Assembly (NCBI RefSeq): GCF_000758625.1
Contig: NZ_CP009283.1
Span: forward strand, 5,219,501-5,283,500
Source: Paenibacillus sp. FSL R7-0273
GTDB lineage: Bacteria > Bacillota > Bacilli > Paenibacillales > Paenibacillaceae
Length of the DNA stretch: 64,000 nt
Direction of reading: 5' to 3'
Shown: positions 10,167 through 62,586 of the stretch, piece by piece
Layout of the letters: every line of letters starts with the position of its first letter
Numbering within the stretch: the stretch's first letter is position 1
Notes under the pieces: model-generated
Seen by the model: the letters and a program-made list of their open reading frames with translations, nothing else
What the model was told of the DNA's origin: nothing
Database searches by the model: none
Made by a program: the position numbers and the translations under genes

Positions 10167-10364
10167 CGCCTGCTGTCCGGCCTAACAACGGGACTTTTAC
10201 CGTTATTTTTGCGTCCCCGCCTGCTTTCCGGCCTAACAACGGGACTTTTACCGTTATTTTTGCGTCCCCGCCTGCTTTCCGGCCCAACAACGGGACTTTT
10301 ACCGTTATTTTCGCGTCCCCGCCTGCTTTCCGGCCTAACAACGGGACTTTTACCGTTATTTTCA
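10167..10364. repeat. Tandem repeat, four units of 51 bp (cluster 1)
   Basis: Units begin at 10167, 10218, 10269 and 10320, each 51 bases, starting CGCCTGCTTTCCGGCC and then TAACAACGGGACTTTTACCG; the last lacks its end. Copies differ at only a few positions. Each holds the inverted repeat AACGG/CCGTT around an 8-base loop. Because 51 is a multiple of three, reading frames stay open through it in several phases; these are not genes. The array fills the gap between the convergent LysR and amino acid transporter genes. Confidence 0.95.
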
Positions 10365-10377
10365 CATTCTGCCTACT

Positions 10378-10420
10378 ACAAAAAGCTGCGCCTGGCGGAT
10401 TATCCGCACAGCGCAGCTTC
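10378..10420 (-). terminator. Rho-independent terminator of the amino acid ABC operon
   Basis: On the minus strand, AAGCTGCGC pairs with GCGCAGCTT, with an inner TGCGG/CCGC stem, and the hairpin is followed by TTTTTGTAG. It lies about 33 bases after the stop of the binding protein gene, the last in the operon. Confidence 0.8.
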
Positions 10421-10452
10421 ATTTGGATCCTGTATTCTTTACCAACTTATAG

Positions 10453-11331
10453 CTACTCGATTTTACCGCCCTCAACCACCAGCTCGTCGGTATAGCCTTC
10501 ACCGTAAACCTCATTCAGGGTCGCATTATACGCCTCATGAATGAACTGCTCCTTGCCCAGCGTCTCGAGCTCGGTGTTGAGCCAGTTCAGCAGCTCGGTG
10601 TTGCCCTTGGCTACTGCCGGGGCAATCGTATCCTGCCCGCCGAAGGCCGGGATGCTTACGGTGAAGCCGGGATTGGATTTGGTCCAGGCGATCAGCTCGG
10701 TGTTGTCATTGGCAATCGCGGCGCCGCGGCCGTCCTTGAGTGCAGAGAAAATCTCGGTATACTGGTCGAATTTCAGCAGCTCAATGTCCGGATATTCTTT
10801 GGTGAAGTAGGTTTCAGCCGTAGTCCCCTTGGCGACGATCAGCCTCTGGCCTTTCTCCTTCAGCTGGTCGATGGAGGTGATCGGCGCACTGTCCGGGGAG
10901 ACGATCCCGAAGGAGAGCTTCATATACGGGCTGGCAAAATCGACCTTTTCCTTCCGCTCATCCGTAACCGTAAAGTTGGCCATAATGATGTCCACTTTAT
11001 TGGATTCGAGGTAGGCTACACGGCTGGCCGCATCCACCAGGACAAATTCTGCCTTGGATTCATCGCCGAGCAGATCCTTGGCAAATCTTTTGGCAATATA
11101 GACGTCAAAGCCCTGATTCTTTCCTTCGGAATCCACATAGCCAAACGGCGGCTTGTCGGCAAATACCCCGATCCGGATCTTATCGTTCTTCTTCAGCTGT
11201 TCAATCGAATCAAACTTGGAAGAAGACGAATTCGATCCGACGTTGTTATCCGAATTACTGCATGCAGTCAGTCCCACCAGCAGCATACTTGCCGCAATAA
11301 TACCCGTTACTAATTTTCTGCCTTTACCCAT
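10453..11331 (-). CDS. Polar amino acid ABC transporter binding lipoprotein (cysteine/cystine-like)
   Basis: A substrate-binding lipoprotein of 292 residues in family 3 of solute-binding proteins. The signal peptide ends in the lipobox VGLTAC, followed by a Ser/Asn-rich linker. Mature features are RIGVFADKPPFGYVD, GFDVYIAKRFAKDL, VDIIMANFTVT and KVDFASPYMKL, the family signatures. The pattern, especially VLVDAASRVAYLESNKVDI, resembles cysteine-binding CjaA-type proteins as I remember them, so cystine or cysteine is the suggested ligand. I chose ATG 11331 because AGGGGA is eight bases upstream; ATG 11340 overlaps it. It is the last of four same-strand genes, 18 bases after the ATPase. Confidence 0.88.
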   Translation of the reverse strand: MGKGRKLVTGIIAASMLLVGLTACSNSDNNVGSNSSSSKFDSIEQLKKNDKIRIGVFADKPPFGYVDSEGKNQGFDVYIAKRFAKDLLGDESKAEFVLVDAASRVAYLESNKVDIIMANFTVTDERKEKVDFASPYMKLSFGIVSPDSAPITSIDQLKEKGQRLIVAKGTTAETYFTKEYPDIELLKFDQYTEIFSALKDGRGAAIANDNTELIAWTKSNPGFTVSIPAFGGQDTIAPAVAKGNTELLNWLNTELETLGKEQFIHEAYNATLNEVYGEGYTDELVVEGGKIE

Positions 11332-11349
11332 CTCTCTCATCCCCTGTTT

Positions 11350-12105
11350 CTATAGTTTGTTGTACTCAAAAATATTAAGAAAGTGCTGTGCACGTTCTGT
11401 CGCAGGACTGGTGAAGAACTGCTCCGGCGGAGCAACCTCACATACGGTGCCTTGATCCATAAAAACGATACGGTCGCCAACCGATTTGGCGAATCCCATC
11501 TCATGCGTCACAATAATCATCGTCATGCCCTGCTTTGCCAGCCCCAGGATGACATCAAGCACCTCGCGCACCATCTCGGGATCAAGCGAAGCCGTTACCT
11601 CATCGAATAAAATAATGTCCGGATTCATGCACAGCGCCCGCACAATCGCGATCCGCTGCTTTTGCCCGCCTGACAGCTGCCGGGGATAATCGCCCGCCCG
11701 GTCGGCCAGGCCGACCCGATCCAGCAGCTCCTGCGCCTGCTGCTGCGCTTCCGTACGCTCTCTCCGCTGCACCTTCAGCGGCCCCAGCAGAATATTCTCC
11801 ATCACCGTCATATGCGGAAACAGCTCATAATTCTGGAATACCATCCCGATATGCTGGCGCAGCTCGCGCCAATTGACATCCCCTCCGGCCAGATCCTGGC
11901 CGCGGTATAGAATATGTCCGCCCTGCACCGGCTCAAGACCGTTGAGACAGCGCAGTAAGGTGCTTTTGCCGCAGCCGGAAGGCCCGAGAATGACAATGAC
12001 CTCTCCGCGCTCCACCTGCAGATCAATTCCTTTCAGCACCTGACGGTCACCGAATGTCTTATGGACATCCTGTACCTCCAGCAGCAGCTCACCTGTCTTC
12101 ATCAT
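11350..12105 (-). CDS. Polar amino acid ABC transporter ATPase (GlnQ type)
   Basis: ATPase of 251 residues for an amino acid importer. It shows Walker A GPSGCGKST, signature LSGGQKQR, Walker B IILFDEVTASLDPE and the H-loop TIIVTHEMGFAKSVGDR, all as in GlnQ/ArtP proteins. ATG 12105 (tandem MM) is preferred because GGAGGAAGG lies ten bases upstream. A start at 12138 would overlap the permease and that ribosome binding site. It energises the two permeases encoded just upstream. Confidence 0.92.
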   Translation of the reverse strand: MMKTGELLLEVQDVHKTFGDRQVLKGIDLQVERGEVIVILGPSGCGKSTLLRCLNGLEPVQGGHILYRGQDLAGGDVNWRELRQHIGMVFQNYELFPHMTVMENILLGPLKVQRRERTEAQQQAQELLDRVGLADRAGDYPRQLSGGQKQRIAIVRALCMNPDIILFDEVTASLDPEMVREVLDVILGLAKQGMTMIIVTHEMGFAKSVGDRIVFMDQGTVCEVAPPEQFFTSPATERAQHFLNIFEYNKL

Positions 12106-12125
12106 ATCTGCATTTCCTTCCTCCG

Positions 12126-12803
12126 CTAATTTTGCCATTTATGCTCGAATCTCCTGGATAGTCTGGACAGCGGGTAACAGACAAGGAAATACAGGATAAA
12201 GATGAACCCGTACACCCAGAACGAGGCATTCGGCGCTTTGATCACACCCAGCTCAATAATCTGCTGCCCGATCTTTACCACCTCGATAACACCGATCAGC
12301 ACAACCAGCGACGTTGTTTTCACCATCCGGGTAGCCAGATTGATCGAGCCCGGCAGCATCCGCCGCACCGCCTGCGGGATCAGAATATGCCGGTACAGCT
12401 GACCTCTGCTTAAGCCCAGCGCCTGCCCCGACTCCACCTGATGCTTAGGCATCGATTCCAGCGCGCCGCGCACAATATCGCCGATCTCCGCCGCCCCCCA
12501 GAGACTGAACACCAGGATCGCAGTAGCCTCTCCGCTGATATCAATGTGCAGCATAGGCGAAAAGCTGAAATGCACCACGTACAGCCAGACCAGGATCGGA
12601 ATAATCCGGAAGGCCTCCAGGTACAGCCGCAGAACAAGCCGCAAAGGCCGGGAATTCACCGTCCGCAGCAGGCCCATCAGCACCCCCAGCACAGTCCCTA
12701 TAACAATGGAGACAAAAGAAATTTCGATCGTAACCAGCAGTCCCCCGAGCAGCCGCTCGAAGTTCGAGCCCTCAAACAGCACCTCAATTCCCGAATTCGG
12801 CAT
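12126..12803 (-). CDS. Polar amino acid ABC transporter permease (second)
   Basis: A membrane permease of 225 residues with five or so helices, of the HisM/GlnP family. The ATPase-contact EAA loop is visible as ESGQALGLSRGQLYRHILIP. Its start overlaps the preceding permease gene by 20 bases, with AAGGAAGGTG just upstream of the ATG. Two non-identical permeases of this family normally form a heterodimeric channel. The reading MPNSGIEVLFEG begins directly with the periplasmic-side helix, as is common in the family. Confidence 0.92.
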   Translation of the reverse strand: MPNSGIEVLFEGSNFERLLGGLLVTIEISFVSIVIGTVLGVLMGLLRTVNSRPLRLVLRLYLEAFRIIPILVWLYVVHFSFSPMLHIDISGEATAILVFSLWGAAEIGDIVRGALESMPKHQVESGQALGLSRGQLYRHILIPQAVRRMLPGSINLATRMVKTTSLVVLIGVIEVVKIGQQIIELGVIKAPNASFWVYGFIFILYFLVCYPLSRLSRRFEHKWQN

Positions 12804-13449
12804 GCCGCACCTTCCTTTCCACCCAGCTGAGCAGGAGCGACAAAGGCAGCACCAGAATCAGATAGGCCAGCACCAGCAGCAGCAGGGATTCCGCAGTTTT
12901 GTAATGCATGCCGATCAGATCCTTGGCGACGTTCATCAGGTCCATCAAGGCGATCGCCCCGACAATGGACGTTTCCTTCAGCAGAAAAATCGCGTTCGCT
13001 CCCAAAGAAGGAATACTGATAGCCAGCGCCTGCGGAAGAATCACGTATCTCGCCAGCTGCACCTTGCTCAGTCCGATACTAAGCCCCGACTCCAGCTGTG
13101 TCCGTCCGACCGCCTCGATTCCGCTTCTGAACGCTTCCGTCATGTAGCTGCCTCCGAGAAAAGTCATCCCGACCACCGCACACTGGAACTCGCTCATGTG
13201 AATGCCCACCTTCGGCAAGCCGTAATACAGGAAGAACAGCTGGACCAGCAGCGGCGTGTTTCTCGACAATTCGATGTAAGCCAGAATAATGCTTCTAAGC
13301 CCTTTAACCTTATAAAAAAGCACCAGACTAAACACAAGCCCGAGCACGAGCGACAGCGCAATCGCGATTAACGCCAGCTTCACCGTCAGCCACATGGCAT
13401 CCCCGTACAAGGGCAGGCTTTCCATAATAAACTCCCAGTCTAAATTCAT
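12784..13449 (-). CDS. Polar amino acid ABC transporter permease (first)
   Basis: First gene of the amino acid importer operon, 221 residues and about five transmembrane helices, family HisM/GlnP. The EAA-type loop reads ESGLSIGLSKVQLARYVILP. ATG 13449 has GGAAGG eight bases upstream, so it is chosen over the GTG at 13455. It partners with the second permease. A candidate promoter with a 17-base spacer lies about 105 bases upstream. Confidence 0.92.
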   Translation of the reverse strand: MNLDWEFIMESLPLYGDAMWLTVKLALIAIALSLVLGLVFSLVLFYKVKGLRSIILAYIELSRNTPLLVQLFFLYYGLPKVGIHMSEFQCAVVGMTFLGGSYMTEAFRSGIEAVGRTQLESGLSIGLSKVQLARYVILPQALAISIPSLGANAIFLLKETSIVGAIALMDLMNVAKDLIGMHYKTAESLLLLVLAYLILVLPLSLLLSWVERKVRHAEFGN

Positions 13450-13554
13450 CAGCACAACCTTCCGTCCGCCAAAATAAAGCCCTAAATCTGACAGCTAATT
13501 AACAACCAATGTGATCGGTTTACTAGGGTGATTTTATCCCGAAGCTGACATAAG

Positions 13555-13583
13555 GTGATATGATTAATTTCACACTATTCCAA
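13555..13583 (-). promoter_or_regulatory. Candidate sigma-A promoter of the amino acid ABC operon
   Basis: Reading the minus strand, TTGGAA (13583-13578) and TATCAC (13560-13555) are separated by 17 bases; each matches four of six consensus positions. The -35 region lies in ATTACTTGGAATAGTG, which recalls sites of the cysteine regulator CymR (from memory). That would fit a cystine transporter, but it is weak evidence. Confidence 0.35.
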
Positions 13584-13604
13584 GTAATTAACTATGTATT
13601 TTTA

Positions 13605-13650
13605 CAAAAAAAACACCGCCAACTTCCTCCGGGTAGAGGTGCTGACGGTT
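13605..13650 (-). terminator. Rho-independent terminator of the HIT gene
   Basis: On the minus strand a long imperfect hairpin (ACCGTCAGC pairing with GTTGGCGGT, inner CCTC/GAGG) is followed by eight T residues. It begins about 12 bases after the HIT stop codon. Confidence 0.8.
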
Positions 13651-13661
13651 AAAATGCTGTG

Positions 13662-14084
13662 CTATAAATATTTTTGCAGCAGTGCGATCCGTTCTGCATA
13701 CTCCTCATCTGTTAAATACGCCTGCCCCGGATTCATCTCAAAGGTTGAGCCCCAGTCCTTCTGCCCCTCATATTTAGGCACAATATGCATATGCAGATGA
13801 TGCAGCTTGTCCCCGTAAGCCCCGTAATTGAGTTTGTCCGGCCCGAAGGCCTGGTCGATCGCGGCAGCCGCTTTTTGCACATCGCCCATAAAGGCCGCCA
13901 ATTCTTCAGGGGAAAGCTGGAACAGCTCCTTTACATGATCCTTGTATACGACATTGCATCTGCCCTTATACGTCTGCTCCTTGAACAGGAATACCGTCGA
14001 TACCGCAAGCTGTGCCACCTCCAGCATCAGGTTATCCCGGCGCTCATCCTCCATACAATACATGTACTCGTTATTCTTTTCCAT
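13662..14084 (-). CDS. HIT-family nucleotide hydrolase/transferase
   Basis: A small cytoplasmic protein of 140 residues. The histidine triad HLHMHIVP lies at about 96-103 and supplies the nucleophilic histidine that attacks the alpha phosphate of nucleotide substrates. Upstream, KGRCNVVYKDHVKELFQLSP resembles the HIT core strand and the helix that precedes the triad. The family (Hint, Fhit and relatives) splits AMP-lysine, AMP-NH2 or Ap4A-type compounds; the specific substrate is unknown. It is monocistronic, bounded by terminators on both sides, with AAGGGATG upstream of the start. Confidence 0.9.
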   Translation of the reverse strand: MEKNNEYMYCMEDERRDNLMLEVAQLAVSTVFLFKEQTYKGRCNVVYKDHVKELFQLSPEELAAFMGDVQKAAAAIDQAFGPDKLNYGAYGDKLHHLHMHIVPKYEGQKDWGSTFEMNPGQAYLTDEEYAERIALLQKYL

Positions 14085-14181
14085 GTGCTACATCCCTTCA
14101 GGTGTCATTATGTACGCCCTATCTCTTCTATCCTGCTCTTATAATCTGCTGCCTGCAGTTACAATAGTTACAGGCTCCGGC

Positions 14182-14230
14182 AAAAAAAAAGAAACGGGCC
14201 CCTCCTTCCTAAAAAAGGGGGGCCGTTTCA
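14182..14230 (-). terminator. Rho-independent terminator upstream of the HIT gene
   Basis: On the minus strand GAAACGGCCCCCC pairs with GGGGCCCGTTTC around an A/T-rich loop and is followed by nine T residues. It insulates the HIT gene from minus-strand reading through the repeat cluster, whose nearest upstream gene is the GH43-like enzyme about 320 bases away. Confidence 0.8.
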
Positions 14231-14317
14231 TAAATTTAGCTGCGCTGCAGGGTTCCTTAGCCGTAATCATCCTGATCCCCGCAGATGAACCCGTACCGTT
14301 TGCTCACTTCCTGTAAG

Positions 14318-14501
14318 TAACGGACCCAGCAGCCCTTATTTCTGCTTTAGGTCCGTTTTTTGCAAGCTAACAGACACCAAAGCCCTTATGTCAGCGTATT
14401 CAGCCCATTATTCGCAGCTGGAGAAGCGATAAGGCCGCTGTGGTCCGTTAGCCCGGCTAGAATAGTTGATTTTCGGTAAATAAGAGCTCTGCTGTCCGTT
14501 A
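14318..14501. repeat. Intergenic repeat cluster with 50/51-bp spacing, two copies per strand (cluster 2)
   Basis: A motif TAACNGAC, about seven variable bases, then CCTTAT occurs on the plus strand at 14318 and 14368 (50 apart). It occurs on the minus strand ending at 14450 and 14501 (51 apart). The first copy forms a hairpin AACGGACC/GGTCCGTT with an inner AGCAG/CTGCT stem. Apart from this cluster and the terminator, the roughly 310 bases between 14231 and 14552 hold no gene I can support. Confidence 0.8.
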
Positions 14502-14552
14502 GGACTTCAAGATCCCGATTGATTCATGCTTAGGAACAAACAAATCCGCCCA

Positions 14553-15491
14553 TTAATCCTGCTCCGGCAGCAGCTTGAGCTCGAACGCCTCATTCCGGTC
14601 GCAGACAAGCACGCCATCAATTACATCCAGCCGGGCAGCCTGAACCGAGGAGCGGCGGCTCTGGTATCTGCCTTCAGGGGTGTCTTCGCTCTCGCTGCCG
14701 TCTCTGCCGGGATGCGTGAAGTAGAAGATGTAAGCCTCATCGCCCTGCACAACGACATCTGCATGCAGCCCGATGGTACCGTCATCCTCACGGGTTCCCG
14801 GCCGGTCCAGGATCAGACCGTTACGCTCCCATGTCTCCAGGTCAGCGGAGCGGAAGACGCCCTGCCCGCGCCATTCATCTACTATCATCCAGTAATGGTC
14901 TTTGAACCGGAAGACGTTGGCCCCTTCATGCGGCCGTCCGGTAATGACAGGTCCGGTAGCCTCCCACTGGTACAGGTCCTTGCTGTCCGCCGCATAGGTA
15001 TGCGACCCGTTCGCCTCATCCTTATACCACATGCGGAACCCGCCGCCGGGCAGCTTGTGGATGCAGGCATCGATTACCCGGTCCGAGCTCAGCTCAAGCT
15101 TGGAACAGAAGGTCCAGTCCAGCAGGTTAAGACTGGTATAATGGAGCATATCGCGCCGGTGGCCGGCCCAGCCTGACGGAATGCCCTGAATGTAGCTGAC
15201 GTACATATGGTACAGCCCGTCATGCCAGATAATCTCCGGTGCCCAGAACGTATTGCGGCCCCATTCCATATCGAGCCCCTGCAGGGTGCCGCGGTACAGC
15301 CAGCTTGTCCCGCCGTCGCGCGAGGAAGCAACACCGAGGTCTGTGCCGTGCACCCAGGCCACACCTTCTCCCTCCGCTGTCACTCTGCGGTTCGTATAAA
15401 TCATCCACCATTCCTGTGCTTCCCGGTTCCAGATGATGACCGGATCTGCTGCCCCGTCGTATACCGGGTCCCTGAATAAAGGTGCCTTCAT
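14553..15491 (-). CDS. GH43/GH32-like five-bladed beta-propeller glycosidase
   Basis: A 312-residue protein without a signal peptide, so probably cytoplasmic. Propeller-type repeats are seen: RDPVYDGAADPVIIWNREAQ with its acidic residue in the first blade (typical of a GH43 catalytic aspartate), then WAPEIIWHDGLYHMYVSYIQ, DACIHKLPGGGFRMWYKDE, HEGANVFRFKDHYWMIVDEW and GLHADVVVQGDEAYIFYFTH. Enzymes of this clan remove arabinose, xylose, galactose or anhydro-sugar units from oligosaccharides. It adjoins, but is separated by a terminator from, the lyase/hydrolase/importer operon, and probably acts on the imported oligosaccharides. The exact family (GH43, GH117 or a relative) is not settled by eye. 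Confidence 0.75.
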   Translation of the reverse strand: MKAPLFRDPVYDGAADPVIIWNREAQEWWMIYTNRRVTAEGEGVAWVHGTDLGVASSRDGGTSWLYRGTLQGLDMEWGRNTFWAPEIIWHDGLYHMYVSYIQGIPSGWAGHRRDMLHYTSLNLLDWTFCSKLELSSDRVIDACIHKLPGGGFRMWYKDEANGSHTYAADSKDLYQWEATGPVITGRPHEGANVFRFKDHYWMIVDEWRGQGVFRSADLETWERNGLILDRPGTREDDGTIGLHADVVVQGDEAYIFYFTHPGRDGSESEDTPEGRYQSRRSSVQAARLDVIDGVLVCDRNEAFELKLLPEQD

Positions 15492-15689
15492 TGTGTTATC
15501 CTCTCCCGCTGTAATTTGGTTGCTGTTCTTATAATCCAGCTTGCTCCACTCCCTTTGGCATCCATTAAAGACAGGCTTGCCTGCTCACGGGGAACTGATT
15601 TTAATACTACACTATTCTTATCTATCCGGTAATCTTCCCTTGTGCGCTTGCTCCCAAAAATGCCAGTGCGGCCCCCCGGAACTGCTGAA

Positions 15690-15730
15690 CAGAAAAGATG
15701 CAGTCTGCCCGAAGGGCAGCTGCATCCTTT
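15690..15730. terminator. Bidirectional hairpin terminator with TTCG-type loop
   Basis: GATGCAG and CTGCATC arms enclose an inner CTGCCC/GGGCAG stem. On the minus strand the loop is TTCG, and TTTTCTGTT follows. It is 20 bases beyond the stop of the 1797-codon gene and ends the utilisation operon. The plus strand also has a T run after the hairpin. Confidence 0.85.
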
Positions 15731-15747
15731 TTACGCCATCCTGTGCC

Positions 15748-18700
15748 TTACTTTACAGCTACAGATATTGTCCCGCTCTCTGTCTCGCCTGCCGCATTCA
15801 CCAGAACAGCACGATACTCATACACTCCTGCCGTTTTTCCTGACAGTACCGTTACTGCTGTCTGGGCAGCCGGTGTAGCTTCGCTGAGCTTTTGCGACTC
15901 TACCAGCCTGTCGTTCTCATACAGGCGGTATTCCGAAGCATTCGTGCCCCACCACAGGTTCATGGTAATGCTGTAGCTGCCGTCAGCATCCCAGTTGTCA
16001 TGGGATAACACCGGTTTGCCGGGAGCTGCATCCGTCACGCTGACGGTCAGCGGATCACTTTTCACCGTTCCGTAGCTATTGATCAGCTCACCGACATACG
16101 TATAGGTCCCGTTCGTTCTGCCGGATATTTCTGCCTTGGCGGTCTGGGCCTGCGGGGAGCTGCTCTTCAGCTCCTGGGTAGAGATCAGCCTGCCGTTTTC
16201 ATACAGCTTGAACGCAGTCCCGTTCTCTCCCCACCATAGATTCATAGTGACGGTGTAGCTGCCGTCTTTGAGTCCTGTATCATGCCCGTTGTTGTCAGAC
16301 AGCACCGGCTTGCCGGGTGCAGCAGTTGCGTCAGAGGGCCCGGTTCCTCCGGTCTTGCGGAACACCGCCTGCAGGTTCCAGTCGCGCGTTACATTGTAGG
16401 TTTTGACCCCTCCAAGATAACCGCCGGCATACGTTGTCAGATTAAACAGCGGGTATTCCGTCCACAGATAACCCGCAGATAAGCCGTAAAAGCTTACCGG
16501 CTCAACCCATTTCACAAATTCATAGCCGGGCGCGGGAACCGCAAGAACTGTAACGGCTGTAAGGTCCCCATGCACCGTCAACACGCTTCCTTCATTCCCT
16601 GAAGGCTGCGGGGCAGGCGGCAGGCCATTCGGATTAACATACACTATCGTTGTCCCGGCCGCAGGATCATTGGCTGTTGTGGTGATTGTGTAGACAGGAT
16701 CGTAGCCTGCGAGATCCGTGCCTGTCTGCCCGAAGAGCCGCAGCTCCGAAATATTGCCGTACCAGTTGCCGCCGTTAATCCGCAAATAACGGAACCCGGC
16801 GTCCTTGTACCGGTCCAGCACGCTGACCGGCTGCCATGTGTCATAGCTGTAGTTTTTGGAGCCTCCGGAGACCGTTATCCAGTTCACTCCGTCTGCCGAG
16901 GCGCTTACAGACACTCCAGAAGCTCTGGCCGGGAATCCGTTGCGGTTCAGTATTTCAATACGGTCAAGCTGAACCCGTTTGCTGCTGTCGGTTGCGCCAA
17001 AATCAAGGGTGTAAGTTCCGTATCCGCCGCCCCCGGCTCTTACATCCGGGAAGGTCGATATTTTCCCGTCGAACAATAGGGGGATCTCGCCCGCATCCAG
17101 GGTATTGTCCGAACCGGTAATATACGCCTCGGCTGCCGCATTAATCTCGTTTGCCGTATTTGAAACGAGAATTTTCCGGGACACCTGTGTATTGTTTGCA
17201 CCTGCGGTATAGCTGTCAGGGTAGCTGTATACGGTATCCGCCGGAGTACCGTCTGCCAAAGTGTAATCGAGCGAAATGGCGGCATAGCCCGGCTTCGTTC
17301 CGGCACTGACGGTGTACTCGGCCGTATAGGTGCCGTTCTGGTGGTCTGTAACCTGTACAGACTCCCCTTGGATCGCAGCCCGGATATTGCCGATCGGTTC
17401 ATCCGCTGAGAAGGACAGAACCACTTTATCCCCGATGACCGCTCTTGGCGGAACCGGCAGCGTATCCTGCACCGGCACGGCATTCTGCACGGTCAGACTG
17501 ATATCCCTGACCACACCGGCCGTTTCATAACGTTCCCCGAAAATATGCAGATCCGCAACAGTAAACGGCTGATCCTCCGTGTAATCATCCTTGTTCAACA
17601 CTCCTGCCGTAATGTCTTTCAGGCGGAAGTAGCGGAAGCCCGTATCCTTATATTCATTCTTCACCGTATAGCTGAACCAGCTGGTGGTATATTCTGAAAT
17701 ATCATCAGAGATCCGCACCCAGTTCGCATAATCATTGGAGGCCAGAATAACGGCTCCCTCAGATCGGGCAGGGAACGCTGCGTCCGGCAGCAGCCTGAAC
17801 GCATCCGGCTTCACCTTAAAGCCTGCACCGAAATCAATTGTGAACTGCTTCTCATCCGCAATCCAGCGGATCGGAATGCCGGATGCATACAGGTCAACCA
17901 GCGAAGCCATATTGATGCTTGCGCTGTCCGCAGCCCCGGAAGCTATGCCGGTCAGATCAAGCGCCCCGTCATCAAGCAGCGGGTTCAGCAGCCGCAGCCC
18001 GATTACCGCTTCCTTAAGCTCCAGCAGCGCCGTATTCCGCGCCGCTTCATCACCGGAGCTGATGAGCGCCAGTGCAGCATCATATTTGCTGCGGAACAGG
18101 GTATAGCCGGCTGTCTCATACTTTTGGGCCGGATCATAGGCGCTGATCACATTCGCAATTGTATCGCTATAAAGACCGGCCACCGTTACAGTGACTTCCA
18201 GCAGCTTAATAGCAGTTCCGTTTGTTAGCGTCACATAGAAGGAATAATCGCCGGGCGGCTGCGATGCCGGCAGCTTCCCGGTCAGTACGCCCACATTGCT
18301 GACGGAAATTTCGGCATCCGCCAGGAAGCCCGCATTATCTCCTGAAATGCCATAGGTTAAGCTCTGCCCGGCATTTGCCGCTGCATTGGAGACATCATAC
18401 TGCAGCTGTGCTGACGGATAGGCATCCAGCCCGAGCGTACTGGCATTTCCTTTGAAAGCCGGCGATTTAACTGTAGTGCTGTTGACGAGTACATGGTCTA
18501 ATTCGATAGAATCGCCAGGCTCCCCGGATACTCTGAAATAAAGGATCGAATCCGCCTGAAATGCGGTAGCAGGCAGAGCGGAGAGATTGATAACCGCATA
18601 TTTCCATTCCCCTCCGGTATCGGGCAGCCGGAACGAAGTAAACGGCTCCTTGTCTGTGTCGCCCTGCAGAGCCAGCGTTGTAATAGCATCGCTTTTGATC

Positions 18701-40838: not shown

Positions 40839-40950
40839 ATCTCCTCAATCTACTCAAGTTCAAAAGCTTCCGGATATCCCCTTTCAGGTACTCTTTTATT
40901 TCGGAGTCCTCCTGCTTCTTCTGGCTAGTGTCGCCAGCTGTACGCTTTTT

Positions 40951-40998
40951 GGTGCTGGTGCTGGTGCTGGTGCTGGTGCTGGTTCTGGTGCTGGTGCT
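40951..40998. repeat. GGTGCT hexamer microsatellite
   Basis: Eight consecutive six-base units GGTGCT, the sixth being GGTTCT. The run is prone to slippage and encodes Gly-Ala in one frame, but no gene is supported there. Confidence 0.9.
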
Positions 40999-41011
40999 GG
41001 TTTAAACCAGT

Positions 41012-41197
41012 TTAGTTGGATTTTCGACACTTAATTCTTGAGTTTTTAGGGATTTGCGACTATTAGTTGGAAAAAAGTTACTTATTTTGGGCGATTGTTA
41101 GCTTTCGAGTTATTTGGCCTGGATTTAGGTTACTTTTTTCCAACTAGTTTCCTGATAGAGGCGATTATTATAGGATTAGGTAGAGATTTTCCACTTA
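41012..41197. repeat. Intergenic repeat cluster with 51-bp spacing, two copies per strand (cluster 3)
   Basis: TTAGTTGGA begins at 41012 and 41063 (51 apart) on the plus strand. On the minus strand TAGTTGG ends at 41146 and TAAGTGG at 41197 (51 apart). The inner pair forms a nearly perfect 18-base inverted repeat (41064-41081 with 41129-41146, one mismatch). The layout equals that of cluster 2 although the sequence is unrelated. Confidence 0.8.
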
Positions 41198-42309: not shown

Positions 42310-42479
42310 CTGTATATCCTCCTTCGGATTATCTTCCAATGAACACATTGTAGCAGAATTTTCCGGCGGTATCCCGTGGCCGTGCTGACCCGCCTGAGAG
42401 TGTAGCTGTGTGCTGCGTGTTCGTTAGCGATCAGTTGGGAGTAACAGGCGCGGCGTTGGCGGGGCCGGGATCTAGGGCC

Positions 42480-43045
42480 GGGGCCGCCTGAATCAAGGGC
42501 ATTTGTGCCCTTCATTTCGGCGATTTGGCCGGATCGGCCCCAAACAAAGGCATTTGTGCCCTTCATTTTGCGCATTTGGCCGGATCGGCCCAAAACAAAG
42601 GCATTTGTGCCCTTCATTTTGCGCATTTGGCCGGATCGGCCCAAATCAAAGGCATTTATGCCTTTCATTTCGCACATTTGGCCGGATCGGCCCAAATCAA
42701 AGGCATTTGTGCCTTTCATTTTGCGCATTTGGCCGGATCGGCCGGATTCAAAGGCATTTATGCCTTTCATTTCTGACATCTGGCCGGGGCGGCCTGAATC
42801 AAGGGCATTTGTGCCCTTCATTTCGCGCATTTGGCCGGATCGGCCCAAAACAAAGGCATTTGTGCCCTTCATTTTGCGCATTTGGCCGGATCGGCCGGAT
42901 TCAAAGGCATTTATGCCCTTCATTTCGGCGATTTGGCCGGATCGGCCCAATTCAAGGGCATTTATGCCTTTCATTCAGGCGATTTGGCCGGATCGGCCCA
43001 AAACAAAGGCATTTGTGCCCTTCATTTTGCGCATCTGGCCGATTC
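42480..43045. repeat. Tandem array of eleven 51-bp units with conserved hairpins (cluster 4)
   Basis: The base A of CATTT recurs at 42501, 42552, 42603, 42654, 42705, 42756, 42807, 42858, 42909, 42960 and 43011, exactly 51 apart. Each unit has two dyads: GGCCG-GAT-CGGCC, and AAGGGCA-TTTG-TGCCCTT. Across units the second dyad also appears as AAAGGCA-TTTA-TGCCTTT, a compensatory change in both arms. Because 51 is divisible by three, long frames run through it on both strands; they have a repeated 17-residue pattern and no ribosome binding site. The array fills the gap between the reductase gene and the TetR promoter. Confidence 0.97.
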
Positions 43046-43275
43046 AGCCAATCCAGCGGCTTCACCTTGTTCACCCACCCGGCTCCCCGGCGTTCATTCC
43101 ATCGCGCTACCCCGTCACTGCGGATAAATAACCACAGCACACATTCTCCGCCCAAAGCATAGAACATATACTTTCAGCTAGAGCTTCAATACTCTCTTCA
43201 CCCAAAGTCCCACTTCCTCTAACAAGAGTATATAGTTACTTACCCAGCGTCAAACTGCTTGCCCATTGAGCATTT

Positions 43276-55635: not shown

Positions 55636-55796
55636 GATCGCTCTCCTTTTGTGTTGAAATGCAAGGCTGTTATTTATGAATACGCTTGCAATAGTAACAC
55701 AGATAACATGCGCACCATATGCGGCTTTTTTAAGCTTGATGCGGGGTTTTTTAAGAAGCTTCACGGATTGAAGCCTTGTTCGTTGGTTGTGAAAAT

Positions 55797-55834
55797 AAAA
55801 AAAAAGCATCCCGGCCTGTCGGCTCTCAGGATAC
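55797..55834 (-). terminator. Rho-independent terminator of the trehalose regulator gene
   Basis: On the minus strand GTATCC pairs with GGATGC, with further CTG/CGG pairs, and a run of nine T residues follows. It is 16 bases after the treR stop. Confidence 0.8.
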
Positions 55835-55850
55835 TTTTTTGGTTGCATAT

Positions 55851-56570: not shown

Positions 56571-56643
56571 TGTTGATCACCGTCCTATATTGTATCATGC
56601 AATGCCGCCGGAAGCACCGCTTCAATTGTGGACAAGGCGTAAC

Positions 56644-56667
56644 AGAAAAACAGCCCCGGAGGGCTGT
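56644..56667 (-). terminator. Terminator between treP and treR
   Basis: On the minus strand ACAGCCC TCCG GGGCTGT is followed by TTTTCTGTT. It should reduce reading into treR, so the regulator probably has its own or reduced expression. Confidence 0.75.
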
Positions 56668-56700
56668 CCATCTGCAGTCTTTTTACCGGTGCGGGCTGGT

Positions 56701-58677
56701 TCAGCCCTTAAGATGAATAGTCAGGATACCGGTCTGCTTGGCTGTCGCCGGTCCGGTCTTCTCTTCAATCCGTTCTACCATATCCTGTCCGGCAGGAATA
56801 ATAATCGGCGTAATGACCGGAAGGCCGGCAGCGCGGATCGCGTCCATATCGAACTCCAGCAGCAGCTCTCCGGCCCGGACCTTGTCACCGATATTACGAT
56901 GCGAGGTAAACCCGTTGCCCTTAAGCGATACCGTATTGATTCCCACATGAATGAGCACCTGCACGCCGCTGGCATGCTCAAGAATCAGCGCATGCTTGCT
57001 CTTAATAACATGAGCGACTGTAGCATCAAATGGTGCATAGACCTTTCCTTCAGACGGCTCAATCGCCAGCCCTTCACCCATCTGCTTCTCGGCAAAAGCG
57101 GGATCAGGTACCTGCTCCAGCGGCACTGCTCTTCCGCTTATCGGTGCAGCCAGCTCGAGAATATTCACCGGCTCCTGCGAGGCCTGCACAGAGCTGCGGC
57201 TGCTGAGCTCACCTGCTCCGCTCACCGCGCTGCTCCGGGCAGCCTCAGCCTGCTCATTCTTGTTAGCACGCTGGACAGCTATACGGCCATACAGCATAGT
57301 GGCGGCAAACGGCACTATCAGCACAATCGCCATCCCGATAAAGAACACGCCCCACTGGTTCGGGAAAATCGACAGGAAGCCGGGAATTCCGCCTACCCCG
57401 ATGGATGAGGCACGCACGTCGTTAAGTGTCAGCAGCATGCCGGCCAGACCGGAACCGATCAGACCGAAGAAAAACGGATAACGGTAGCGGATATTAACCC
57501 CGAAGATTGCCGGCTCCGTTACGCCCAGGAAGGCAGATACAGAGGAGGTTGCGGCAAGCCCCTTGGCCTTCTGCTCACGGACGAGGAAGAACATCGCGAG
57601 TGCAGCAGCACCCTGGGCAATGTTGGACAGCGCCAGCATCGGCCACAGGAAGGTCCCGCCCTCACTGCCGATCAGCTGGACATCGACGGCAAGGAACGTA
57701 TGGTGCATCCCGGTGATGACCAGAGCGGAATATAAGCCGCCGTAGATCAGGCCTCCGAGCAGTGCAAAGTGGTCGAAGATATAAACGAGGCCGTCCGTAA
57801 TCGCATTACCGATAGCAAACGTAAGCGGCCCGATGAGGGTAAACGCCAGAAACCCTGTAATTAGCAGCGCTACCGGCGCAACGACCAGCAGCTTAATCGA
57901 GTCATGAACCCGCTTATTCAGGAACTTCTCAATGACGGCCAGAATATAAGCGGAGACCAGTACCGGCAGCACCTGCCCCTGGTAACCGATCTTCTCTACA
58001 TGCCAGCCGAACAAATCCCAGGTAGGTACGGTTCCTTTCAAAGAAGCATCAGCATAGCCGTAGGCACTCAGCAGATCCGGATGTACGAGGATCAGACCCA
58101 GTACAATCCCGAGCAGCGGACTGCCCCCGAAGCGTTTGACTGCGGACCAGCCGATCAGCGCCGGCAGGAAGGTGAAGGCTGTGCTGGCAATGGTATTGAT
58201 AATAGAAGCAATATCACTCCATTGCGGATAGGCTTCAACCAGTGACTTCTCATACAGGAAAATCCCCGATCCGGTCAGGATATTATTAATCCCGAGCAGA
58301 AGACCTGCGGTAACGATGGCCGGAAGAATCGGAATAAAAATATCGGCCAGTGTCTTGATCGCCCGCTGCAGCGGATTCTGCTTACGGGCGGCTGCCGATT
58401 TCACATCATCCTTGGAGGAGCGGGAACCGCCGGTGATTTTGATCATTTCTTCGTAGACATTATCGACCGTTCCCGGCCCGATTACGATCTGAAATTGCCC
58501 CTGGGTCGAGAACTGCCCTTTGACCAGATCATTGCGGTCCAGCGCTTCCTTGTCCACCTTGCTCTCGTCATAGAGCGAGAATCTCAGCCGGGTTACACAA
58601 TGCGTTGCAACCTCGATATTCTCCTTACCCCCGACAGCCCGGACGATATCCTCTACATTTTTGCGGTCTATAGCCAT
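56701..58677 (-). CDS. treP: PTS trehalose-specific transporter, EIIBCA fusion
   Basis: A 658-residue permease that takes up trehalose and phosphorylates it to trehalose-6-phosphate. Domain order: EIIB (1-85) with the phosphorylated Cys in EVATHCVTRLRFSL; EIIC membrane domain (about 105-460) with about ten helices; and a fused glucose-type EIIA (about 505-658) with VLIHVGINTV, the His phospho-acceptor. In Bacillus subtilis, TreP lacks the EIIA part, so here the relay from HPr is self-contained. It lies 50 bases after treA on the same strand. Trehalose specificity is inferred from the neighbouring trehalase and operators. Confidence 0.93.
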   Translation of the reverse strand: MAIDRKNVEDIVRAVGGKENIEVATHCVTRLRFSLYDESKVDKEALDRNDLVKGQFSTQGQFQIVIGPGTVDNVYEEMIKITGGSRSSKDDVKSAAARKQNPLQRAIKTLADIFIPILPAIVTAGLLLGINNILTGSGIFLYEKSLVEAYPQWSDIASIINTIASTAFTFLPALIGWSAVKRFGGSPLLGIVLGLILVHPDLLSAYGYADASLKGTVPTWDLFGWHVEKIGYQGQVLPVLVSAYILAVIEKFLNKRVHDSIKLLVVAPVALLITGFLAFTLIGPLTFAIGNAITDGLVYIFDHFALLGGLIYGGLYSALVITGMHHTFLAVDVQLIGSEGGTFLWPMLALSNIAQGAAALAMFFLVREQKAKGLAATSSVSAFLGVTEPAIFGVNIRYRYPFFFGLIGSGLAGMLLTLNDVRASSIGVGGIPGFLSIFPNQWGVFFIGMAIVLIVPFAATMLYGRIAVQRANKNEQAEAARSSAVSGAGELSSRSSVQASQEPVNILELAAPISGRAVPLEQVPDPAFAEKQMGEGLAIEPSEGKVYAPFDATVAHVIKSKHALILEHASGVQVLIHVGINTVSLKGNGFTSHRNIGDKVRAGELLLEFDMDAIRAAGLPVITPIIIPAGQDMVERIEEKTGPATAKQTGILTIHLKG

Positions 58678-58727
58678 TTGATCACTCCTTACCTGTTTTA
58701 GTTATCATGATGCCGGAATGCTTCTCA

Positions 58728-60431
58728 TTAGCGGATCAGCCACATGTAAGAGGCATACGGGCTAAGCGGAAGCTCCTGTGCTAAAGACGGGGCTTCTGCC
58801 GTATTGCCGGTCAGCAGCTGCTGTTCACCGCTCCCGCCCAGCTCTGCCCATTGCTTGTCGCCGAAGCGGAAGGTGATCTCTTTTCTGCTGAAGTTCGAGA
58901 CAACCACCAGCGTCGCTCCCTCTGCCTGTCTGGCATAAGCGAACACCTCAGGATGGGCCTCATCCAGTCTGCTGAAGCTCCCTTCCACAAACACATCATG
59001 CTCCTTGCGCAGAGCAATCAGCCTGCGGTAGTGATGAAGGATGGAATCGGGATCGGCCAGCTCTTTGCGCACATTGATATCGGGGTACCGCTCATCCACT
59101 TTGATCCACGGCGTTCCGCTAGTAAAACCCGCATTCGGGCTGTCATCCCACTGCATCGGCGTGCGGGAATTGTCACGTGAACGCTCCTGTAGGATGCTGA
59201 GCGCTGTGCCCGGCTTTTTACCCTGCTCCTGCAAAATCCGGTACATATTCAGTGACTCGATGTCACGGAACTCCTCAATGCTTTTCCAGATTGGGTTCGG
59301 CATGCCGATTTCTTCGCCCTGGTAGACGTAAGGTGTGCCCTGCATGCCATGCAGCGTTGTTGCCAGCAGCTTCGCGCTTTCCACACGGTAGGCTTTATCG
59401 TCGGCGAATCTGGAAATGGCCCGCGGCTGATCATGGTTGTTGAAGAACAAGGCATTCCAGCCTCCGCCCTGCTGCATTCCGGTCTGCCACTGCGTGAACA
59501 GCCGTTTCATCGCCTCAAAATCATACGGCATCAGCTCCCACTTCTGCCCGTTGGGATAATCCACCTTCAGATGATGGAAGTTGAACGTCATGGAGAACTC
59601 CCGCTCCTCAGGACTCGAATACCGGATGCAATGCTCAAGTGTCGTCGAGGACATCTCACCGACCGTAACCATCTCATAAGGCCCGAACACCTCATCGTAC
59701 ATCGCCTTGATGAATTCATGGACACGCGGTCCGTCAGTGTAGAACTTGCGCCCGTCTCCCGGCGGCACACTGCCGTCATCATCAGGGAAGCGCTGGTCCT
59801 TGGAGATGACGTTAATGACATCCATCCGGAAGCCGTCTACACCCTTCTTGGCCCAGAACAGCATCATATCGTTCACTGCCCGGCGTACCTTCTCATTCTC
59901 CCAGTTGAGGTCTGCTTGCGTTTTGTCGTACAGGGTAAGAAAATACTGCCCCGACGCTTCGTCGAACTGCCAGGCCGGACCGCCGAACTTCGACTGCCAG
60001 TTGTTAGGCAGCCCGCCATCCGGGCCCGGGTCCTTCCAGATATAATAGTCACGGTACGGGTTGTCCTTGCCGGAAGACGCCTGCTTGAACCACTCGTGTT
60101 CAACCGAGGTGTGATTGACCACAATATCAGTCATCAGCTTCATACCGCGCCGATGCAGCTCCTGCACAAGCTCGTCAAAGTCCTCCATCGTGCCGAAGTC
60201 CGGGTTAATCGCCTCATAATCAGCTACGTCGTAACCGTTATCATACTGCGGCGAGACATACACCGGCTGCAGCCAGACAATATCAATGCCAAGCTCCTGC
60301 AGGTAATCCAGCTTTTCTGTAAGCCCTTTAATATCTCCTGTTCCGTTGCCTGTCGTATCCTTAAAGCTCTTAGGGTATACCTGATACACCGTGGACCGGC
60401 GCCACCATTCCGAATACCGGGTCTGTGTCAA
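58728..60431 (-). CDS. treA: Alpha,alpha-phosphotrehalase, GH13 family
   Basis: A 567-residue cytoplasmic enzyme that hydrolyses trehalose-6-phosphate to glucose and glucose-6-phosphate. It starts at TTG 60431, with GGAGGTG six bases upstream; an ATG at 60464 is in frame but lies in the leader. GH13 regions are clear: DIVVNHTSVEHEWF (region I), GFRMDVINVISKD with the nucleophile Asp (II), TVGEMSSTT with the acid/base Glu (III) and FNNHDQPRAISRF with the transition-state Asp (IV). The N-terminus WWRRSTVYQVYPKSFKDTTG matches TreA/TreC. It is the first gene of the operon, directly behind the TreR-controlled promoter. Confidence 0.95.
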   Translation of the reverse strand: MTQTRYSEWWRRSTVYQVYPKSFKDTTGNGTGDIKGLTEKLDYLQELGIDIVWLQPVYVSPQYDNGYDVADYEAINPDFGTMEDFDELVQELHRRGMKLMTDIVVNHTSVEHEWFKQASSGKDNPYRDYYIWKDPGPDGGLPNNWQSKFGGPAWQFDEASGQYFLTLYDKTQADLNWENEKVRRAVNDMMLFWAKKGVDGFRMDVINVISKDQRFPDDDGSVPPGDGRKFYTDGPRVHEFIKAMYDEVFGPYEMVTVGEMSSTTLEHCIRYSSPEEREFSMTFNFHHLKVDYPNGQKWELMPYDFEAMKRLFTQWQTGMQQGGGWNALFFNNHDQPRAISRFADDKAYRVESAKLLATTLHGMQGTPYVYQGEEIGMPNPIWKSIEEFRDIESLNMYRILQEQGKKPGTALSILQERSRDNSRTPMQWDDSPNAGFTSGTPWIKVDERYPDINVRKELADPDSILHHYRRLIALRKEHDVFVEGSFSRLDEAHPEVFAYARQAEGATLVVVSNFSRKEITFRFGDKQWAELGGSGEQQLLTGNTAEAPSLAQELPLSPYASYMWLIR

Positions 60432-60472
60432 ATGAAGCACCTCCAGAATTTGGTTCTCTCCCAATCATTAAA

Positions 60473-60531
60473 CTTGTATATACAAGGTCAAACACTTCAC
60501 ACAGTTTAAACCTGTATATACAGGTTGTCAA
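60473..60531 (-). promoter_or_regulatory. treA promoter with two TreR operators
   Basis: On the minus strand -35 TTGACA (60531-60526) and -10 TAAACT (60508-60503) are 17 bases apart. The spacer contains the palindrome CCTGTATATACAGG (60511-60524). A second palindrome, CTTGTATATACAAG (60473-60486), lies just downstream of the start site. The centres are 38 bases apart. TreR bound at both would block RNA polymerase until trehalose-6-phosphate appears. Confidence 0.9.
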
Positions 60532-61061
60532 TAAGTATAATGATGGATAGCCAAAAGAGACTCTGCCAACCACGTGGATGGGGCAATGGCTGGATTAGTG
60601 GGATTTTCCACTTGGTAGGGCTCGGTGGCGGTGGTTGGCTGGTGTAGGAGGCGATTCAAGGGGATTTTTCCCCTTAATAGGGCTCGTATACAGGCGGTGG
60701 AGGCGATTTAGTGGGATTTTTCCCTCTGACGGGGCTCGCTTGCGGACAGTTGGGTCGGTTGGGTCGGTTGGGTCGGTTTAAGGGGATTTTTCCCTTTGGT
60801 GGGGCTCGCTTGCGGACAGTTGGGCCGATTTAAAGGGATTTTTCCCCTTAGTGGGGCTCGTTTGCAGGCGGTGGAGACGATTTAGTGGGATTTTTCCCTC
60901 TGACGGGGCCCGTTTGCGGCGGTTGCGCCGATTTAAGAGGATTTTTCCCCTTAGTGGGGCTCGCCCACTGGCGGTTGAGGCGATTCCTCCACAGCCCCCT
61001 AAAGAAGTTGGAGTCCTCCCCCACAAAAATGTAGACTAGATACAGGAGGAGGATGAACGGT

Positions 61062-61376
61062 ATGGGACACTTAACAGGAACAAGAGAGAAGGCCGCGCAA
61101 GAGGTGTTGTCTGGCATTAAGGCAGCGGTGGTTGCCCGAAAGTATGGAGTGACCCCATCGACGGTGAATCAGTGGGTGAGAGATTACCGGGAAGCCCATG
61201 GGGAACAAGATCATCCGTATCCCCAAGATCAGGTGGAGGAACTGAAACGCCTGCTGGATGTCGAGCAGAAATACGAGAAGGCTGTGAAGATCCTCGGTGA
61301 AAAGGAGCTAGAGATTGAGATTTTGCGTGAACTGCTAAAAAAGCCAACCCCTGCTTATCCGAAAAAATCGAGGTAG
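61062..61376 (+). CDS. IS3-family transposase OrfA
   Basis: A 104-residue DNA-binding protein (107 if ATG 61053 is used, but that codon touches GGAGGAGG, so 61062 is preferred). The helix-turn-helix is GIKAAVVARKYGVTPSTVNQ with WVRDYREAHG. A leucine-rich coil follows (about 60-90, EELKRLLDVEQKYEKAV), which dimerises OrfA and OrfAB. It ends in KPTPAYPKKSR, where the codons CCG AAA AAA TCG contain an A6 run just before the stop. OrfB is in the -1 frame and open back to this point, so a programmed -1 frameshift should make the fused transposase. Confidence 0.92.
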   Translation: MGHLTGTREKAAQEVLSGIKAAVVARKYGVTPSTVNQWVRDYREAHGEQDHPYPQDQVEELKRLLDVEQKYEKAVKILGEKELEIEILRELLKKPTPAYPKKSR

Positions 61377-61381
61377 CCGAT

Positions 61382-62314
61382 ATGTTCATTAAGCAGGGGA
61401 ATAAAGCAGCGTTGGTACTACGTCTCGTGGGGCTAGCAGAGTCTACGTATTACGACCGTAAGAAACGCAAGTCACAGGATGCCCAGGCCGTACCTCAGGG
61501 GCGCGGAAGACCCGTACCCGGCTATTCCCTGACCGAGTCTGGAGAGAAGATTAGCGACGGGCAGATCCAGGAAATGCTTCTGGAACTGGTCGCTGGAGAA
61601 GAGCACGTGTACGGGTACAAGCTCCTGGCCAAGTGCTTATGGAACCAGCACAGCCTTAAGCTCAATCACAAGAAAAGCTACCGGCTGTGTCAGGCGCTGG
61701 AGATCCTGCAGCCCCAGCGTCACAAGCGCTTTAAGCATCCCCGGAAGCTGCCGGAGAACCGGGTTATTACCGGAGCGGGTCAGCTCTGGCAGATGGACAT
61801 TAAGTACGGGTACGTGGCGGGCCGGGACCGGCATTTCTTCGTCCTGAGCATTATCGATGTGTTTACCCGTGTCATCGTCGGCTACCACCGCGGATCGTCG
61901 TGTGAGGCCAAGCACGCCTGCCAGACGCTGGGACGCGCCATGGAGCAGCACTGCGCCCAGGACAGTGCACGCCCGGTGATCCGCACCGACAACGGCCCAC
62001 AGTTCGTCAGCCACCTGTTTGGTGACATGTGTGAAAGCTGGGAAATGACTCATGAACGCATTCCGCCTCGAACACCGGATTTAAATGCTTTTATTGAATC
62101 GTTCCACAGTAATATTGATCGGGATTTGTTCCGTAAAGAGGCATTCGAAACGTTCGACGAGGCCTATGAAGCCGTGGACCGGTACATGGATTTCTACAAC
62201 AACCGGAGAATGCACACCAGCCTTCGCAACATGCCACCGGTTGAATTTTCAGAGTGGGTCATGGGCCTAGAAGACCGGTCCGCCTTCTTCTGGCCGAGGA
62301 AAAAAGCGAAATAA
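61382..62314 (+). CDS. IS3-family transposase OrfB (DDE catalytic part)
   Basis: A 310-residue integrase-core protein. The DDE triad is complete: Asp in QLWQMDIKYGYV, Asp in VIRTDNGPQFVSHLFG and Glu in LNAFIESFHSNIDRDLF. The C-terminus contains YNNRRMHTSLRNMPPVEF, usual in IS3. It is translated mainly as OrfAB through a -1 frameshift at the A6 run upstream. No interrupting stop codon is present. The product cuts and joins the IS ends. Confidence 0.95.
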   Translation: MFIKQGNKAALVLRLVGLAESTYYDRKKRKSQDAQAVPQGRGRPVPGYSLTESGEKISDGQIQEMLLELVAGEEHVYGYKLLAKCLWNQHSLKLNHKKSYRLCQALEILQPQRHKRFKHPRKLPENRVITGAGQLWQMDIKYGYVAGRDRHFFVLSIIDVFTRVIVGYHRGSSCEAKHACQTLGRAMEQHCAQDSARPVIRTDNGPQFVSHLFGDMCESWEMTHERIPPRTPDLNAFIESFHSNIDRDLFRKEAFETFDEAYEAVDRYMDFYNNRRMHTSLRNMPPVEFSEWVMGLEDRSAFFWPRKKAK

Positions 62315-62586
62315 AGAGCATAGCTACGACAAGTACCGGTTTTATACTGAGGACTCCGGGATAAGGGGGTCTCACCGATTCAAGGGGATTTTTCCCTTTA
62401 ATGCGGCTCGTTCGCATGCGGTTGGGGCGATTTAGTGGGATTCTTCCCTTTAATGTGGCTCGTCCGCTGGCGGTTGAGGAAATTTAGTGGGATTTTTCCA
62501 CTTGGCAGGCTCGTTGGCGGATAGTTGGGCCGGTTTAGTGGGATTTCACCCTTAATCCGGGGTATAGGTTACACCTACGTCCACGC

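Follow-up and report, generated by a model that had tools for sequence, protein, structure and literature searches.

Five clusters of intergenic repeats lie within a 64,000-nucleotide stretch of the genome of Paenibacillus sp. FSL R7-0273 (NCBI RefSeq assembly GCF_000758625.1, contig NZ_CP009283.1, positions 5,219,501 to 5,283,500; this whole stretch is called the window here). A preliminary description took the clusters to be unrelated in sequence and yet to share a step of 51 bases, and the question raised by the locus is why unrelated repeats should keep one pitch. The analysis indicates that three of the five (clusters 1, 4, and 5) are not unrelated. They are tandem arrays of units with one hairpin core in common, and in this genome the arrays of this kind that were examined run along the inferred direction of replication. 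The observation is real in this genome and its clade and is thus partly confirmed, with a change of wording needed; the common hairpin, the orientation along replication, and an insertion sequence (IS) in the arrays go beyond it.

The genome is a single contig of 7,288,921 bp, in which the window starts at 5,219,501. Sampling covered 864 kb of it, namely the window and 40 systematically spaced stretches of 20 kb. A local-lag scan with no sequence prior (lags 20–150, segments kept at a score of at least 28) found 45 segments, 14 at lag 51 and five at lag 52, with every other lag at four or fewer. One segment was a masked-letter artefact and was dropped, leaving lags 51 and 52 with 19 of 44 segments overall and none of 12 that are coding. 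With first-order Markov versions of 40 of the 41 sequences as control, a single segment came out, possibly that same masked run. The genome-wide enrichment proposed as a check on the shared period is therefore present in the sample, 51/52 being the commonest intergenic period (19 of 32 segments), rather than a broad spread of periods. Within the window, Tandem Repeats Finder and autocorrelation confirmed the 51-base step at 10166–10362 and 42491–43041, and gave a period of 52 for cluster 5, at 60765–60964 and 62385–62499; extra bases noted earlier in two steps of that cluster fit a 9-bp repeat at 60749–60778 and an autocorrelation peak at lag 70. The same check in relatives held in part. Stretches of five other genomes, picked for containing cores, yielded 24 segments at 51 and two at 52 among 46, while in 400 kb of core-poor or coreless genomes (G013, G202, G094, G032, and G120) lags of 50–53 account for just two of 22 segments, one at 50, one at 52, and none at 51, so the enrichment is restricted to core-rich genomes.

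With the 19 lag-51/52 segments set in register, a palindromic core could be made out by eye, its loop being A-rich on one of the strands (the A-loop strand). The element common to the arrays is an 18-nt hairpin with a 7-bp stem and a 4-nt loop. An array list for this genome had 62 rows, of which five without cores were dropped (two in genes, one masked run, and two others); the remaining 57, with 88 arrays from named relatives, make up the 145 from which cores were extracted, an A-loop hairpin being required and some arrays having an off-core consensus (e.g., L111). Three main 7+4+7 core types were found: AAAGGCA-AAAA-TGCCTTT, AAAGGGA-AAAA-TCCCTTT, and AACGGTA-AAAG-TCCCGTT. Stem pairs 1, 4, 5, and 7 are near-invariant across the 145 arrays; between core types, pair 6 flips from C-G to G-C and pair 3 changes from A-T to C-G. 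The whole unit is about 51 bp, consisting of the hairpin core, extended by AAT...GATT in the commonest type, and then some 25 drifting bp. A composite of the commonest consensuses, made by eye, is AATNAAAGGCAAAAATGCCTTTGATTCCGCCGAAAGNGGGCGGA..., with an 11-bp stem, an A4 loop, and a GC-rich half in which a second hairpin, CCGCC-GAAAGN-GGCGG, was seen by eye, as it was in some arrays. Because core and 51-mer consensus are held in common, the repeat families are related, and for clusters 1, 4, and 5 the earlier statement that their sequences are different and unrelated has to be given up.

Outside the core, the arrays have drifted far apart. Identity of the 25 inter-core bases is 0.74 within arrays of this genome and 0.36 between them, against 0.28 for shuffled sequence. 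The modal step is 51 in 44 of the 57 rows and 52 in the other 13; among all steps in the 145 arrays, 634 are of 51, 119 of 52, 15 of 50, and three of 53. Chaining confines steps in the array list to 49–53, a restriction that the lag scans did not have. The pitch, then, outlasts the sequence between the cores. The 13 rows stepping by 52 bp also leave the suggestion that 51 bases matter as 17 codons without support, and a protein-coding repeat was rejected on account of them; a frame is open throughout 28 of 38 51-pitch arrays with at least four copies, and by estimate periodicity alone would often give as much. For the idea that 51 bases serve as five helical turns, the evidence is neither for nor against. 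Arrays of this kind may in places carry annotation as hypothetical proteins or questionable CRISPRs (clustered regularly interspaced short palindromic repeats).

The arrays sit between genes, and in this genome the copy number of a row ranges from 2 to 18 (median 5). Solitary units are rare in the sample: a weight-matrix scan of the 864 kb gave 178 raw hits (two with the reversed control), only one of them outside arrays, and a looser pattern gave four single matches outside arrays, three with the orientation described below and one, in a gene, against it. The systematic 800 kb holds 13 core arrays, which extrapolates to more than 100 in the whole genome, where the core pattern at up to one mismatch has 462 matches (282 plus, 180 minus) and the reversed pattern seven. 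Fold prediction has the cores folding as DNA on both strands.

Replication direction was inferred from GC skew, and in 57 of 57 core rows from this genome (54 loci when arrays split by the IS are joined) the A-loop strand runs with it. Loop counts alone are mixed in a few rows (e.g., 5 to 6 at 6017852), and the strand was fixed by core extraction. Among the places listed in whole-genome pattern searches, the A-loop strand is plus from 0.22 to 3.65 Mb and minus from 4.22 Mb on. Among the matches listed (100 of 462) there is one plus core at 4.09 Mb, belonging to an array whose count favours minus by 5 to 1, and in a second pattern search (93 of 93 places) two solitary hits with two mismatches oppose the rule. 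GC skew changes sign between sampled stretches at 3.88–3.90 and 4.06–4.08 Mb, and array orientation switches near this change. On a local scale, 53 of 54 rows match the skew of their own ±4-kb surroundings, and skew over 8 kb gave the correct direction in 126 of 126 own-genome intervals (those below 0.02 excluded). In 20-kb stretches of the five other genomes, chosen by their cores, all 21 core groups agree with local skew; in G142, up to 2.87 Mb, all of the matches listed (100 of 180) are plus. The orientation rule is thus exceptionless among the own-genome arrays examined and a strong bias elsewhere. From about 6.27 to 7.29 Mb and from 0 to 0.22 Mb there are no listed places or sampled arrays except one solitary two-mismatch hit; arrays are perhaps depleted near the origin, if its position is as assumed.

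Orientation does not depend on the neighbouring genes (codon-usage calls, key ones checked with Pfam). For 55 rows with both neighbours, 23 lie in convergent gaps, 25 in gaps co-directional with replication, five in divergent, and two in head-on ones; the corresponding numbers for 184 background gaps of 150–3000 bp are 26, 93, 50, and 15. Arrays follow inferred replication in all four classes, in 55 of 55 rows. Replication predicts orientation better than transcription does, since under a transcription rule convergent pairs would give a mixture. The tally counts IS-split arrays twice and leaves the right neighbour of array 5 unsettled; after correction by hand 4881451 is not head-on, 244883 not divergent, and 243284 not convergent, leaving 769441 as the sole head-on locus. 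One array lies between two genes that both run against replication, each Pfam-confirmed. Arrays are mostly downstream of genes, with unidirectional or convergent placement in 48 of 55 rows here and, relative to the array strand, in 68 of 75 in other species. A crude promoter scan found candidates in one and six of the 145 arrays on the two strands. At one locus (L057, 4928–5005), two AAAGGG-type cores lie about 55 bp apart, and the first forms the tip of an apparent intrinsic-terminator hairpin followed by a T run.

Features of the window are as follows:

10166–10362, minus strand: array 1, about four units at a pitch of 51, core AACGGTAAAAGTCCCGTT on the minus (A-loop) strand.
14318–14501, no single strand: cluster 2, TAACGGAC-N9-CTTAT family, with two units on each strand, no hairpin-core array.
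41012–41197, no strand given: cluster 3, a weak lag-51 signal outside the array list.
42476–43050, minus strand: array 4, 11 units at a pitch of 51, core AAGGGCACAAATGCCTTT on the minus strand.
60626–60986, minus strand: left part of array 5, pitch 51–52, GGG-type cores on the minus strand.
60987–62377, plus strand: IS3-family insertion sequence in array 5, with 61382–62314 scoring above the cut-off of the IS3 transposase model.
62378–62550, minus strand: right part of array 5, pitch 52, past the IS.

Cluster 5 (60590–62550) is a single array broken by a 1.39-kb element, whose IS3 transposase scores over the NCBIfam cut-off; the left part of the array ends in a 4-bp sequence that recurs after the IS. 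The genome has eight copies of this IS, identical over a 1262-base query, and seven of them are inside arrays. By eye, 4-bp direct repeats flank all eight, and the insertion point is in the loop at two copies and beside the hairpin at the others. Array 4 has an ADH-family gene (minus strand) on one side and a TetR-family gene (plus strand) on the other. Rfam has no match at gathering score in the window, the best sub-threshold match in the surroundings of array 4 having an E of 0.19.

The shared period, clear in clusters 1, 4, and 5, is weak in clusters 2 and 3. Their lag-51 identities are 0.41 and 0.48, values that the best lag (20–90) of Markov sequences equalled in 25 and 11 of 2000 trials, respectively, choice of region not being allowed for in these counts; neither cluster is a row of the array list. 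Cluster 3 is possibly a decayed array. A hexanucleotide run, (TGGTGC)n in 8.7 copies, stands directly before it at 40950–41001. Cluster 2 represents another, symmetric repeat family with nearly the same pitch as the hairpin arrays, laid out ++-- over about 182 bp, with units often facing each other. The family has 60 matches at 32 loci in this genome, spaced at 50 or 51 bp on one strand and at 61 or 111–112 bp across the centre, and orientation means little for it because the element is symmetric. Only for this family does the puzzle of one pitch in unrelated repeats stay open. A lag-50 repeat in G013 resembles it by eye. Another repeat, at lag 52 in G094 (L214, 9038–9155), has a different hairpin-like motif and is perhaps another branch of the class.

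The hairpin arrays have a narrow distribution. In a search of 245 genomes from the family, ten or more occurrences of the core pattern were confined to the genus of the window (11 of 32 genomes, this one included); outside that genus, a single match was found in 10 of 213 genomes, fewer than the 18 in which the reversed control matches. A tandem-core pattern searched over GTDB species genomes, where records very close to this genome may be absent, found 92 stretches, every one titled Paenibacillus: phytohabitans, tritici, camerounensis, typhae, albidus, piscarius, and ihuae, and strains DMB5, S150, and PastM-3. Sites were at first paired automatically under conditions that proved too strict (four pairs); the repeated placement covers 27 sites of other species, set against the sampled DNA of this genome. 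Cores are present in both species at 21 of these and only in the other species at six. Orientation agreement was scored at 25 of 27; one disagreement (L117) is a mis-phased T-loop consensus that agrees on re-reading, and the other (L112) is a true exception. Median inter-core identity at corresponding sites is 0.76 (20 pairs), against 0.43 for all pairs of own and other arrays; orthologous arrays are mostly homologous. Copy number varies at corresponding sites (e.g., 2 versus 5, 5 versus 14), and at four placed sites (L171, L164, L139, and L116) the core type differs with orientation kept.

The account preferred here, with moderate confidence, is that clusters 1, 4, and 5 belong to one superfamily of a Paenibacillus clade, resembling repetitive extragenic palindromes (REPs), with inherited arrays and an orientation linked to the replication fork; the orientation by itself is probably fork-linked. 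The arrays would be inherited at fixed sites and would gain or lose whole units, a turnover that would keep units alike in an array and let arrays diverge from one another. The pitch would be inherited in the same way and maintained since length changes would come mainly as whole units, and descent from one repeat with such gain and loss is enough to account for it. The step itself may also be constrained near 51–52 bp, as its survival while the inter-core sequence drifts far suggests. The single generating or maintaining mechanism supposed in the preliminary description is in this respect broadly right, the simplest cause being one repeat superfamily and not the convergence of unrelated repeats. 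The A-loop strand is purine-rich between the cores (GC skew averages +0.20 and is above zero in 48 of 57 rows; AT skew averages +0.21 and is above zero in 46 of 57), and provided that GC skew marks replication it would serve as template for the lagging strand. Single-stranded hairpins at the fork could make the gain, loss, or tolerance of arrays dependent on orientation, as in the orientation-dependent expansion and deletion of other hairpin repeats, and arrays would then persist mainly in one orientation.

Several results weigh against this account. At named draft loci, orientation is not absolute: 61 of 72 arrays agree with local skew (loci under 4 kb, consensuses without the core GG, and seven arrays with an absolute skew below 0.02 are left out). 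Wider stretches confirm four of the 11 disagreements, L123, L161, L198, and L190 (seen there as L251, L257, L258, and L255), and the longest of these reversed arrays has 12 units. L112 runs opposite to the site at which it is placed, with six T-loop units and one A-loop unit, and L259, a further P. albidus array, is of mixed orientation. L195 turns out to agree on a wider stretch and L164 by placement; for L114, L149, L152, and L177 the disagreement is neither confirmed nor reversed by either means. Many of the 11 are probably real, because 8-kb skew is reliable in this genome. Between the two strands, the gap in predicted DNA fold energy is 0.3–0.6 kcal/mol with inconsistent sign, compensatory change amounts mainly to two stem pairs among three core types, and non-Watson-Crick pairs (A-C 391 and G-T 216 of 6412) favour neither strand as the one that folds with the A loop, which makes the wobble-pair test equivocal. 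The second, GC-rich hairpin does not appear in an alignment fold and was rejected; the mean fold z for 141 arrays against mononucleotide shuffles is -0.97. A strict collapse model is weakened by the existence of long reversed arrays, and pure collapse is disfavoured since it should leave solitary units, yet those are rare. In P. albidus (L257, L258, and L259) arrays are reversed or mixed, and the orientation rule seems relaxed there.

As long reversed arrays and scarce solitary units argue against pure collapse, the arrays may have been selected for some function, be it as a protein platform or as a boundary with fork direction. Tentatively, the arrays could be a class of element, defined by tandem hairpins, a pitch of about 51 bp, and fork orientation, that marks or insulates gene ends in a fork-directional manner and is selected while its sequence drifts; they might, for example, set a polar boundary to forks, or to transcription that opposes the forks. 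It is rather doubtful that they are instead platforms at gene ends for a dimeric DNA-binding protein or topoisomerase, with pitch phasing the binding and orientation suiting the fork. Such binding would agree with the palindromic arms changing together on both sides between core types, with units found almost only in arrays, with the kept pitch of 51–52, and with the excess of convergent gaps (23 of 55 rows, against 26 of 184 gaps in the background); three core types, however, would need differing specificities or a tolerant protein, a symmetric dimer leaves the polarity of the loop unexplained, and there is no candidate protein, none having been sought.

A role in RNA, as 3′-end hairpins or as terminators of transcription against replication, is unlikely. 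What speaks for it is that in this genome, where two genes converge on an array, a terminator separates the stop codon of the one that points against replication from the array in just 2 of 23 cases (in one of the 23 that gene is the IS transposase), compared with 28 of 65 array-free convergent gaps (p 0.002), and in 2 of 17 when only spacers of at least 50 bp are counted (p 0.02). This deficit was not replicated in other species (9 of 25 versus 11 of 39, p 0.59), and terminators for that gene also occur inside three and beyond three of the 23 arrays in this genome. In addition, for 32 of 47 co-oriented genes upstream, a terminator of the gene itself comes ahead of the array (0.07 in shuffled sequence), orientation is independent of gene direction, and G-T pairs show no preference for the A-loop strand; the terminator role was rejected on the failed replication. 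That the arrays are ordinary minisatellites, their common orientation a by-product of strand-biased base composition, is very improbable. The purine-rich inter-core DNA does have the same sign as the leading strand, but its skew exceeds that of 20-kb stretches in the right arm (0.02–0.11), and ordinary minisatellites would not be expected to have a hairpin core in common, to keep their pitch, or to leave so few solitary units.

Whatever their role, with pitch and orientation kept amid sequence drift the arrays separate a constraint on spacing and direction from one on sequence. It would be unusual for an intergenic repeat to keep its orientation in 57 of 57 rows whichever way the genes point, and the arrays offer a natural test of the effect of replication asymmetry on non-coding DNA, besides being where an IS3-family element sits. 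Searches of an open-access library turned up no title or abstract opening that describes them, most subscription papers and all preprints lying outside that scope.

The closest parallels are the REPs and the bacterial interspersed mosaic elements (BIMEs) built from them, which include GTAG and CGTC families in the passages of PMC3733652 and PMC2817692 that concern them. REPs are short intergenic palindromes in high copy, preferentially placed in unidirectional and convergent gaps and sometimes in tandem; passages of PMC1525189 describe them as IS targets and report gyrase binding for those of E. coli. In general habit the present arrays are similar, being short palindromes in more than 100 copies, intergenic, in unidirectional or convergent gaps, and targeted by an IS. 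Like IS1397 and ISKpn1, as they appear in PMC1525189, the IS3-family element here sits mainly within a palindromic repeat (seven of eight copies); unlike them, it has another repeat and host, and its insertion point is not uniform, some copies lying in the loop and others next to the hairpin. The differences begin with mobilisation: the Y1 transposase model of the REP-associated tyrosine transposases (RAYTs), Y1_Tnp (PF01797), has no match in this genome, as against five of 14 control genomes, and RAYT mobilisation was rejected on that count. By inspection, no GTAG or CGTC tag stands beside the core in the family consensuses. In contrast to BIMEs with alternating units, those of an array here are on one strand, with mixed arrays rare (L112 and L259), and they occur almost only in arrays, at one pitch, and oriented along inferred replication. 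Mycobacterial interspersed repetitive units and other minisatellite loci with variable numbers of tandem repeats also consist of intergenic units of tens of bp in variable copy number, but the arrays described here have in addition a hairpin core, a pitch kept across diverged arrays, and an orientation along replication. FtsK-orienting polar sequences and SpoIIIE recognition sequences (KOPS/SRS), Chi, and Ter sites have a replication-linked orientation as short single motifs; the element here is intergenic and consists of palindromes arrayed in tandem. CRISPRs combine identical repeats with unique spacers, unlike these arrays, whose inter-core DNA is itself largely alike within an array. With the RAYT, tag, and alternating-orientation features of REPs absent, the arrays are REP-like in habit and yet distinct.

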